Below are positions 26,990 through 29,439 of a DNA stretch of 64,000 nucleotides, piece by piece. Each line of letters begins with the position of its first letter. The first letter of the stretch is position 1. The notes below the pieces were generated by a model. It made no database searches. It had not been told where the DNA came from and saw only the letters and a program-made list of their open reading frames with translations. Source of the DNA: Pseudomonas brassicacearum subsp. neoaurantiaca (GTDB lineage Bacteria > Pseudomonadota > Gammaproteobacteria > Pseudomonadales > Pseudomonadaceae); NCBI RefSeq assembly GCF_013608025.1, contig NZ_VDLV01000013.1, positions 186,001-250,000 of the forward strand, read 5' to 3'. The position numbers and the translations under genes are program-made.

Positions 26990-27015
26990 AGGGGGGCATC
27001 TTCCACCGGGGGGGG

Positions 27016-27300
27016 TTATTGGTCTTCGAGGCCGCGTTGCTCGATGACGCCGAACACGTCGGTGACGTCCTGGACGAGGATCCGGGCGACGTTGGTGAGG
27101 GTGTTGAAGTCGCCAGCAGCCGAATCGCGCAAGGTGGCGCAGGCCATGAGCGTCAGGTAGTCGAGGGTCGCATGCAGGCGTTCGCTGGCGCAGGCGTGAA
27201 GCTCTGTTAGCGGGGCGGTTTTGTCAATGAACAGCACAGGTTGTGTGGTGGCGATTGGGGTTAAGGGCGTGAAGCGGTTAATCGATTGATGCGTGGTCAT
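27016..27300 (-). CDS. Small DUF3077/DUF6124-like protein
   Basis: A 94-residue protein (MTTHQSINRFTPLTPI at the front) with a PVLFIDKTAPLTELHACASERLHATLDYLTL segment and a C-terminal helix RILVQDVTDVFGVIEQ. The arrangement (a short variable front, a '.L..A.E.L......L' helix, a small-residue turn, a last helix) is that of small Pseudomonas proteins grouped as DUF3077 or DUF6124, of unknown function. AGGGAAT lies before the ATG at 27300. The start codon overlaps the stop of an upstream ORF (TATGA), which suggests translational coupling. Confidence 0.7.
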   Translation of the reverse strand: MTTHQSINRFTPLTPIATTQPVLFIDKTAPLTELHACASERLHATLDYLTLMACATLRDSAAGDFNTLTNVARILVQDVTDVFGVIEQRGLEDQ

Positions 27301-27488
27301 AGATGAAATTCCCTGTAGAAAAAGAATTGCCACCTTTTTGCTGCGAAACAAAGTGGGTGGCAGCTACGCGCGGGTTCGCAGACCGAGAATGACCAAACCC
27401 GGCAGACCCAGAGGTCTCCCACGCGCAACCGCCATAAAATGAACGCCGGCAATTTTGCCTGAGTTTTCATTTCGCGGTGCAAAGTCAT
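27297..27488 (-). CDS. Possible upstream ORF coupled to the small DUF gene
   Basis: A 63-codon frame starts at an ATG at 27488 and stops with a TGA whose first two bases are shared with the next start codon. The translation (MTLHREMKTQAKLPAF, later ending FFFYREFHL) is rich in Arg, Trp, Phe and Cys and does not look like a globular protein. Another frame through the same bases is also open. It may be a leader peptide, or only a by-product of a conserved structured RNA. AGAGAA precedes the ATG. Confidence 0.35.
   Translation of the reverse strand: MTLHREMKTQAKLPAFILWRLRVGDLWVCRVWSFSVCEPARSCHPLCFAAKRWQFFFYREFHL
27329..27361 (-). promoter_or_regulatory. Leader hairpin just before the small DUF gene
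   Basis: GCCACC at one side pairs with GGTGGC at the other, continued by CTTTTTG/CAAAG, about 30 bases before the start codon at 27300. Together with the repeated blocks at 27373-27413 and 27502-27548 it makes a structured leader. Confidence 0.55.
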
Positions 27489-27548
27489 TGTTCTCTGTCG
27501 GGCTGCGAAACCCCTGCCCACCGGCCAAAGCCAGCAGACCCACCGAAC
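27373..27548 (-). repeat. Two diverged copies of a leader block upstream of the small DUF gene
   Basis: On the minus strand the block at 27373-27413 reads CTGGGTCTGCCGGGTTTGGT, then a TCTGCGAACC end. The block at 27502-27548 reads GGTGGGTCTGCTGGCTTTGG, then a GTTTCGCAGCCC end. They are direct copies with a 130-base period. The stretch between them carries ACTCAGGCAAAATTGCC. Confidence 0.55.
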
Positions 27549-27602
27549 TATAGAGCAGATTCCCGAGGCCAAAATCGACCCTGTAGGACGCACCGGCCCC
27601 CT

Positions 27603-27719
27603 GTGGCGAGGGAGCTTGCTCCCGCTCGGGGGCGCAGCCGCCGTAAAACCGGCAAATGCGGTAGGTCTGGAGGAAAGAGGGCCGCTTCGCAGCCCAGCGG
27701 GAGCAAGCTCCCTCGCCAC
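27603..27719. repeat. REPIN, family B
   Basis: Inverted family-B REP pair at the far end of the leader region, between it and the first lyase gene. Confidence 0.9.
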
Positions 27720-27757
27720 GGGGCGTAAATTCCTACGAGATTTTCAGAAGCAGAAAA

Positions 27758-28426
27758 TCAGGTGTTGTGATCGATATCCAGCACGCTGAACGTCACCTTC
27801 CCACCTTCGCTGGTATAGCCCGTGTTGTCCTGCACGTACACCCCGGCTTTGAAGTACAACGGCTTGTCGCGCCAGGCGGCGCCAACCGTGGTGTACCAAC
27901 TGTTGCCCGCGGCGGTAATGCCCAGGTCGCCGGTCCGATCGAGATGGATCCGGTACGAAAACGACCGATTGAGCTTCACCCCCGTGGCAACGGTGATGAC
28001 CCTGCCTTCGCTGTCATCGGGACGCATGCGGACCTTGGCGACAATGTTGCCGGTGGCGCTGGAGTCGCTGTATTGGTATTCCAGCTTGACCATGGGCTTG
28101 CTGCTGTCCTTGGCATGGATCTGACCAATCACGATCTTGCCGCTGCTGGGCACCTGGCTGACGACGAGGCTCGCCCGCAGCTGGTTGTCGGCGTCGGGGT
28201 AGACCCAGTTGCGCAAGGTGCCGTCCTTGTAGGTCTCGCGCAATTCGCTGCGCGGGTAAATGGCATTCTCTGTCTTGGTGCCGGTAACCGGTGACCAGAA
28301 GTACACCGTGCTGCCTGAGGAGTTGAAATACTTGTCCTGGAACCCGTCTACCAAGCGAGGGGTTTCGATGGTTTTCGGCGGGCTGCCTTCGGGAATGCTC
28401 AGGTTCCAGGTTGCAAGATCGACCAT
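27758..28426 (-). CDS. Alginate lyase, polysaccharide lyase family 7 (copy 1)
   Basis: The 222-residue enzyme has all three PL7 signatures: RSELRE at 59-64, QIH at 102-104 and YFKAGVYVQ at 191-199, which carry the catalytic Arg, Gln, His and Tyr. It cleaves alginate by beta-elimination; the QIH form is often linked with guluronate-containing blocks. No signal peptide is seen, as in the short P. aeruginosa homologue, so it may be cytosolic or leave by another route. It is about three-quarters identical by eye to the next gene, a tandem duplicate. A sigma-54-type promoter sequence lies 151 bases upstream. Confidence 0.92.
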   Translation of the reverse strand: MVDLATWNLSIPEGSPPKTIETPRLVDGFQDKYFNSSGSTVYFWSPVTGTKTENAIYPRSELRETYKDGTLRNWVYPDADNQLRASLVVSQVPSSGKIVIGQIHAKDSSKPMVKLEYQYSDSSATGNIVAKVRMRPDDSEGRVITVATGVKLNRSFSYRIHLDRTGDLGITAAGNSWYTTVGAAWRDKPLYFKAGVYVQDNTGYTSEGGKVTFSVLDIDHNT

Positions 28427-28767: not shown

Positions 28768-29439
28768 TCAAAGGGTGGTGTGTTTGATTTCCAACAGGCT
28801 GAACGTTACTTTTCCGCCTTCGGTGACATAGCCCGTGTTGTCCTGGACATAAACGCCGGCCTTGAAATACAGCGGCTTTACCTTCCAGCTCGGATCTACG
28901 GTGGTGCGCCAGTTATAGCCCGCCGCGCTGATGCCAAGTGCGCCCTTGGGGCTCAGGTGAATCATGTACGAAAAGCTGCGGTTCAGGGTCACGCCGGTTG
29001 CAATGGTAATGACCTGCCCCGTCTCGTCATCAGGACGCATGCGCACCTTGGCGACGATATTTCCCGTGGAACTGTAGGTCTTGTATTGGTATTCCAGCTT
29101 CACCATCGGGCTGGTGCTGTCCTTGGTGTGAATCTGGCCAATCACGATCTTGCCGGAGCTGGGTACCTGATTGACGGTGATGGTGGCGCGCAAGGTGTTG
29201 TCCGCCGACGGGTAAAGCCAGTTGCGCAAGGTGCCGTCGGGATAGGTTTCGCGCAGTTCGCTGCGCGGGTAAATCGCGTTGGCCGTCTTGGTGCCGGTTA
29301 CCGGGGCCCAGAAGAACACGGTGCCGGTTTCGGCGTTGAAATATTGATCCTTGAACCCTTGCGCCAGGCGAGGGGTTTCGATGGTCATCGCCGGGCTGCC
29401 TTCGGGGATGCTCAAGTTCCAGGTGGTGAGATCGATCAT
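28768..29439 (-). CDS. Alginate lyase, polysaccharide lyase family 7 (copy 2)
   Basis: The 223-residue product has RSELRE, QIH and YFKAGVYVQ at the same positions as copy 1 and again no signal peptide. Differences cluster in the loops (NAETGT against NSSGST, KTYSST against SDSSAT), so the two may differ in substrate preference. Its promoter region, leader length and an upstream GACC..GGTC-like site are also duplicated. That means the copied unit included the control region. No alginate lyase regulator or transporter is next to it. Confidence 0.92.
   Translation of the reverse strand: MIDLTTWNLSIPEGSPAMTIETPRLAQGFKDQYFNAETGTVFFWAPVTGTKTANAIYPRSELRETYPDGTLRNWLYPSADNTLRATITVNQVPSSGKIVIGQIHTKDSTSPMVKLEYQYKTYSSTGNIVAKVRMRPDDETGQVITIATGVTLNRSFSYMIHLSPKGALGISAAGYNWRTTVDPSWKVKPLYFKAGVYVQDNTGYVTEGGKVTFSLLEIKHTTL

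Follow-up and report, generated by a model that had tools for sequence, protein, structure and literature searches.

The window, by which we mean the whole stretch of 64,000 nucleotides from Pseudomonas brassicacearum subsp. neoaurantiaca that was analysed, carries on its minus strand a small gene for a 94-aa protein (ATG at 27300, stop codon ending at 27016), as a first-pass annotation made from the sequence had described. The leader of this gene holds a match to the C4 antisense RNA family (RF01695; Rfam covariance model) at 27439-27353 on the minus strand, which covers model positions 1-87 of 87 and scores 75.2 bits against a gathering cut-off of 45 (E value of 8.8e-15 in a search of the 761-base stretch 27000-27760). 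Folding of the leader also predicted the three C4 stems P1, P2 and P3, the base of P1 has the GG start (TATGGCGG), and 52 nt separate the 3' end of C4 from the ATG. The leader is a chromosomal copy of the C4 antisense RNA family known from phage. A structured RNA had been one of the options offered for it beforehand, and the full-length match together with compensatory change in the stems upholds that option, although the known family had gone unrecognised.

C4 layout and neighbourhood

A 7-nt element, a', in the stretch that joins P3 to the 3' strand of P1 complements TTCGCAG on both sides of C4, at a1 (27509-27503) and at a2 (27347-27341). From 5' to 3' along the minus strand the features are as follows.

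27547-27552, minus strand: -10-like hexamer TATAGT, presumed promoter (from sequence; weak)
27516-27542, minus strand: 5' hairpin GGGTCTGCTGGC TTTG GCCGGTGGGC (predicted fold)
27503-27509, minus strand: a1, TTCGCAG, complementary to a' (7-nt match)
27484-27495, minus strand: b1-like stretch GAGAACAATGAC, a partial complement of b' (inspection and duplex prediction; weak)
27447-27460, minus strand: small hairpin directly 5' of C4 (fold; similar ones seen by eye in paralogues)
27353-27439, minus strand: C4 antisense RNA with stems P1, P2 and P3 (RF01695, covariation)
27388-27397, minus strand: b', apical loop of P3, TTTGGTCATT (fold; b'/b2 matching across loci)
27375-27381, minus strand: a', CTGCGAA, linker from P3 to the P1 3' strand (complementarity, covariation)
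27341-27347, minus strand: a2, TTCGCAG, partner of a' (complementarity, covariation)
27329-27334, minus strand: GGTGGC, potential pairing partner of GCCACC (27361-27356) in the 3' end of C4 (sequence)
27308-27314, minus strand: ribosome-binding-site-like AGGGAAT, the usual place of b2 (sequence; b2 of paralogues overlaps here)
27294-27300, minus strand: ATGACCA, best b' match of the window copy, over the start codon (7 nt; weak)
27016-27300, minus strand: 94-aa small gene, presumed target (open reading frame)

The heptamer TATAGTT is also present in the 8 closest homologous leaders compared, but a sigma-70 consensus promoter scan of the window leader found nothing, and the hexamer is therefore graded weak. 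The 5' hairpin occupies the position of the GTCGCTG..CAGCGAC hairpin of the paralogues and of phage P1. Although the 7-nt a1 is present, the c4-a1b1 model (RF03163) gave no match at E ≤ 1 in 27000-27760.

Around the locus, a long inverted repeat of a common Pseudomonas GTGGCGAGGGAGCTTGCTCCC-type sequence, which we take to be REP-like, lies at 27596-27726; microRNA models match it below threshold, and a 140-aa open reading frame begins in it. Two neighbouring genes of an alginate-lyase family (PF08787), likely a tandem duplicate, follow upstream of the leader (27758-28426 and 28768-29439, minus strand), and lyase matches also stand beside 7 of 28 homologous C4 loci. A match to TwoAYGGAY RNA (26460-26398, minus strand, 47 bits, cut-off 43) sits in an apparent dispersed intergenic repeat that also occurs near several homologous loci, and a SAH riboswitch (62.3 bits) was found at 7897-7791 on the minus strand.

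The window protein matched no family in Pfam, NCBIfam or PHROGs (no Pfam family at E ≤ 1), DUF3077 (PF11275) included, and a relationship to DUF6124 (PF19619) was rejected, as profile comparison shows no similarity. The earlier description of a 'DUF gene' is for this reason right for C4-linked paralogues, which encode DUF6124 and DUF3077 proteins, and wrong for the window gene. It is modelled as a soluble-looking helical protein in which two long helices form a helical hairpin (residues 31-54 and 62-92; mean pLDDT 73.9); the model of a DUF6124 protein (pLDDT 72.5) has a further helix ahead of a similar pair. Neither the window model, searched against the PDB, nor the DUF6124 model, searched against viral models, gave a significant fold match. 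A search with one DUF6124 protein found nothing in a plasmid collection and a single phage record, which it matched at the very edge. While 40 viral contigs encode DUF6124 relatives, none was found to encode a member of the window protein family.

Copy number and linkage to small genes

The multi-copy, conserved leader that the first-pass annotation had suspected is borne out: the genome of the window has 30 C4 matches, all above the cut-off, and C4 precedes 28 of the 29 window-gene homologues fetched from other genomes (L090 lacks it). Across a sample of the genus, 109 of 119 genomes had C4 over the cut-off, with at most 33 candidates scored per genome, and the 19 genomes that were rescored held 24-55 copies each. 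An order-wide sample, in which no more than 21 candidates per genome were scored, gave 29 of 194 genomes over the cut-off, 3 of them Pseudomonas; genomes outside Pseudomonas had 1-6 copies, except for one from the same family with 14. None of 14 control genomes had a C4. The numbers of C4 and of DUF6124 rise together (Spearman 0.89 over 118 genomes, using rescored copy counts for the 19 rescored genomes), and the window gene is present in 62 of 118 genomes of the genus.

We kept 80 of 196 loci as named homologues of the window gene. All 80 are from Pseudomonas, the closest among them being P. brassicacearum CCUG 51508 (98% identity), and 71 have a C4 leader (19/20, 20/20, 13/20 and 19/20 in the four batches). 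The C4 of L139 continues into a homologue that is truncated, and L169 has only 95 nt of upstream sequence, too little for a verdict. The remaining eight (L123, L148, L150, L151, L153, L154, L155 and L166) are without C4; ahead of the gene each keeps a site of a1 type, which reads TTCGTAG in L123 and TTCGCAG in the other seven.

The presumed gene start lies 49-56 nt after C4 in 28 of 28 window-gene loci, and the first ATG 47-57 nt after it in 30 of 30 loci from other species. Of the 30 own-genome C4 loci, 25 show DUF6124, in a few cases as a partial match, in the 450 nt that follow C4, and 25 are immediately preceded by an RF03163 match at E ≤ 0.001 (some below the cut-off). The loci without DUF6124 are the window locus (L013), L001, where a 27-aa open reading frame is followed by DUF3077 as second gene, L003, L019 (at a contig end) and L020. 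L020 belongs to the window family (75% identity), and L003 was placed there by its likeness to more distant members. Many DUF6124 cassettes (for example L007, L012 and L015) also have a strongly conserved stretch, TTGCCTACAACTACGCCAGAATCCGCCGGCTTGTGCGC, 5' of a1 and before the presumed promoter, which could be a site for a common regulator; this stretch is absent from the window.

The 30 loci from other species, one match per genome, were classified by a Pfam scan of representatives and the remainder sorted by likeness. The first open reading frame is a short one start-stop coupled to a second gene in 11, a short one alone in 1, Bro-N-like in 7 (one truncated), DUF6124 in 6 (one seemingly interrupted), DUF3077 in 3 and window-like in 2. 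The Bro-N-type, antirepressor-like genes (172-175 aa, 49-50 nt after C4) are those of L039, L041-L043, L045, L046 and L049, with the Pfam match run on L041 alone and L045 truncated. In phage phiAH14b (L092, 3958-4051) a C4-like leader is followed by a 52-aa open reading frame start-stop coupled to the next one, and C4, leader and 52-aa frame look the same as in the chromosomal locus L033.

Conversely, C4 is missing after seven RF03163 matches of the own genome. Of these, L095, L096, L097, L098 and L102 have an open small gene behind the C4-less a1 hairpin, while L099 and L103 look broken. Together with the eight C4-less named homologues, these loci show that the a1 hairpin can stand without C4, and make regulation in trans by sister C4s possible. 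The leaders of L099, L102 and L103 have a 7-nt a match to the C4 of L003, and no b match was found between them and that C4; C4-less small genes are possible trans targets of other C4s.

Other features that had drawn attention in the window fared less well across the 72 C4-bearing leaders, that is, the window and its 71 named homologues. The 63-codon open reading frame whose TGA overlaps the ATG, like a second open frame across the leader, does exist in the window, yet it is open for at least 63 codons in only 21 of the 72 (window included; 23 of 80 when C4-less leaders are counted). Among close relatives it runs for 56 codons in L107, 57 in both L140 and L108 and at least 100 in L110, and for 5, 5 and 3 codons in L109, L111 and L112 (protein identity 82-89%). 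The TGA/ATG overlap itself recurs in 63 of the 72, or 70 of 80 with the eight C4-less leaders, because the second codon usually starts with A. Two diverged copies of a 'GGGTCTGC' block had likewise been noted: the 17-nt blocks at 27541-27525 (the 5' part of the 5' hairpin) and 27409-27393, minus strand, agree at 15 of 17 positions in the window, but just five of the 72 leaders, those of the window and its close relatives L107, L108, L110 and L140, retain an identity of at least 13/17. Mean self-similarity of the blocks (10.4) is at the level found between different loci (10.5), and we rejected them as a family-wide repeat. The peptide strings that the first-pass annotation likened to short hypothetical proteins of Pseudomonas are plausibly translations of such leaders.

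Recognition codes and covariation

Covariance analysis of collected leaders had been proposed as a check; a count of compensatory changes supports both the stems and the a'/a2 helix. In a MAFFT alignment of 43 sequences, 25 from window-gene loci (window included) and 18 from the 30 own-genome loci, 96.4% of cells were paired against 87.8% after shuffling, and 25 of 35 pairs had double changes. P1 was 97.3% paired (double changes in 12 of 17 pairs), P2 99.1% (5 of 5), P3 93.4% (2 of 6) and the a'/a2 helix 95% (6 of 7). Controls with slid structures dropped to 34-42% paired, a comparison in which the counted structure is favoured because it was drawn from the window's own fold. The C4 stems and the a'/a2 pairing are kept by strong compensatory change.

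Complementarity is also specific to the locus. Among the 30 own-genome loci, runs of at least 7 were found for a'/a2 in 28 self pairs against 16% of cross pairs, and for b'/b2 in 26 self pairs against 44%. Self exceeded cross for a'/a2, a'/a1, b'/b2 and b'/b1, with none of 5000 permutations reaching the observed mean. Predicted duplex energies in the own genome agreed, at -13.1 (self) vs -9.9 (cross) for a'/a2 and -17.3 vs -11.4 for b'/b2 (0 of 10000 permutations in both cases). With reversed sequences the difference almost disappeared (-10.7 vs -10.3 for a', -11.5 vs -11.7 for b'). Since several loci have a common a code, the self partner alone came first for a'/a2 at only 3 of 30 loci; for b'/b2 it did so at 17 of 30. 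Within the 29 window-gene loci the a'/a1 run is at least 7 in all 29 and a single a code is used throughout, so that a'/a2 does not discriminate there (3750 of 10000 permutations reach its value); b'/b2 does.

To place b2, the start codon was sought 40-61 nt after C4. A b2 match of at least 7 nt then sits at the ribosome-binding site or at the start in most loci of each set: own genome 26 of 30, window gene 24 of 29, other species 28 of 30. The window is counted in two of these sets. It enters the 26 through its match over the start codon, the best run of a weak b'/b2 pairing that ranks 22nd of the 30 loci. A relative, L065, has a clean b'/b2 match, the leader of L107 is nearly the same as the window's, and in L140 and L108 a long b' match lies 5' of the gene, by eye. 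The b site of the window copy may be shifted or in the process of being lost.

When at least 6 Watson-Crick pairs were demanded for both a and b in the own genome, 22 of the 30 self combinations qualified, against 10 of the 870 cross combinations. Judged by these sequences, the combinations of a and b codes differ enough that each RNA would silence mainly its own gene. The adjacency of the target makes the codes readable and comparable over dozens of natural pairs, a set of natural antisense pairs that looks largely orthogonal, and the question of the role and specificity of chromosomal C4s thereby becomes a direct reporter test.

Probable mode of action and relation to known systems

The sequence analysis itself shows which RNA family the leader belongs to, how many copies there are, where they lie relative to the gene, that they covary and that complementarity is specific to the locus. 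On this basis we consider it very probable that a chromosomal RNA of the C4 type here blocks translation of the gene that follows it. Control of the small gene's translation by its leader is, in any case, the most likely role. By analogy with phage P1 and Acinetobacter, from which transcription, RNase P processing and repression in trans are carried over, the transcript would presumably start near 27540 and run through a1/b1 and C4 on into the small gene, and a presumed RNase P cut at the 5' base of P1 would free the C4 RNA. The freed RNA would then base-pair with mRNA transcribed from the same locus: a', 7 nt long, would bind a2 immediately 3' of C4, and the b' loop would bind around the ribosome-binding site or the start codon. 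Translation of the 94-aa protein would thereby be blocked. The locus would be one of 30 C4 loci, each RNA mainly silencing its own gene.

Among the alternatives, a purely cis-acting attenuator, in which a'/a2 and the GCCACC/GGTGGC pair form within one transcript and no trans-acting C4 is freed, appears unlikely, yet it fares best. The GCCACC/GGTGGC pair pointed out by the first-pass annotation is present in the window, where it could enclose a2 in a hairpin in competition with P1, and runs of at least 6 of this type occur in 19/30, 21/30 and 28/29 loci of three locus sets. This pairing carries little locus-specific signal, however, with 83, 8 and 1369 of 5000 permutations reaching the observed mean; the 17-bp P1 has a' at one end and a2 at the other, which we would expect to be awkward intramolecularly; and the C4 of phage P1 is, in the part of PMC5320573 that deals with it, a processed RNA of ~77 nt.

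It is improbable that the C4 copies are chiefly an immunity library against phages using C4 targets, with the adjacent gene incidental. This was one option proposed for Acinetobacter in the relevant part of PMC5320573, and the C4-like sequence in the Pseudomonas phage phiAH14b and the Bro-N genes after some chromosomal C4s are in keeping with it. Yet in most cases C4 and the gene beside it carry matching sequences, with b2 at that gene's ribosome-binding site, and C4 and DUF6124 numbers rise together across genomes; a weaker point, as the DNA of the window locus alone was searched, is that 2 of 50,697 phage records matched.

We give no better chance to a type I toxin-antitoxin unit in which the small protein would be toxic and C4 its antitoxin RNA. 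Type I toxins are small and hydrophobic, whereas the window protein looks soluble and helical in its model, and small genes that stay open behind a C4-less a1 hairpin (L095-L098 and L102) argue against strong toxicity, as does the lack of C4 before 8 of 80 named homologues. In favour of such a unit, the many coded copies per genome resemble, in our view, toxin-antitoxin families, and Icd, the target of C4 in P1, inhibits division according to the passage on it in PMC11897509. Finally, it is highly improbable that translation of the 63-codon upstream frame couples or limits translation of the small gene through the stop-start overlap, as had been suggested. In its favour, frame and overlap exist in the window, the frame is open over 56 codons or more in 4 of 7 close relatives, and 11 of 30 other-species loci have a 31-54-aa start-stop-coupled frame after (not before) C4. 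Against it, the frame is not conserved and closes after 3-5 codons in the other three relatives, whereas double changes preserve the RNA pairs.

C4 is best known as a phage immunity RNA. A wider and more speculative extension of translational silencing by C4 is that Pseudomonas chromosomes may harbour a domesticated, genus-wide network of phage-immunity RNAs (up to 55 C4 copies per genome), most of them silencing an adjacent small helical protein by means of co-evolving a/b codes. C4-less paralogues that keep the a1 site, sometimes with the same code, might be trans targets of their sisters, and the set could amount to self-silenced switches, largely orthogonal to one another, which a rival target RNA, for instance from an incoming phage or a sibling cassette, would release. 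We regard this as possible, though the odds are against it.

C4 itself is known, and a many-copy family has been published for Acinetobacter; the Pseudomonas cassettes were not found in print. C4 and c4-a1b1 are listed in Proteobacteria and phages in the sections of PMC2864571 that cover them, and C4 in Xylella and Burkholderia in those of PMC12189769 and PMC4603805. The open-licence literature yielded no description of coded C4-plus-small-gene cassettes of Pseudomonas, although an additional file of PMC2864571 may mention Pseudomonas loci. With c4-a1b1 (RF03163) the own-genome loci share the upstream match in 25 of 30, unlike the window copy, and with the DUF6124 and DUF3077 cassettes of the own genome the window has in common a small protein after C4, but one that matches neither family.

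In A. baumannii, the available portions of PMC5320573 describe 21 C4-like RNAs (Group 1) in one genome, with RNase P-like processing inferred from RNA-seq. Those RNAs resemble the Pseudomonas set in having many chromosomal copies and a variable a' loop; they differ in that the same portions identify no targets for them, whereas here an adjacent gene bears a2 and mostly b2. The closest counterpart in layout is phage P1, in which C4 silences icd/ant of the immI operon c4-icd-ant, as the pertinent passages of PMC8198154 and PMC12197685 describe it. The GenBank annotation of P1 gives a1, b1, C4, a2, b2 and icd in that order, with a1 and a2 both TTGACAG and icd ~50 nt after C4, against 52 nt for the window gene. 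Candidate homology of C4-locus genes to P1 Icd or Ant1 was rejected, tblastn against 88 C4 loci giving one weak Icd hit (E 0.16). The window shares with P1 the same RNA family at full length, the order and spacing of the elements and 7-nt a sites in the same place, but the Pseudomonas copies are chromosomal, number many per genome and have a different small gene as their presumed target.
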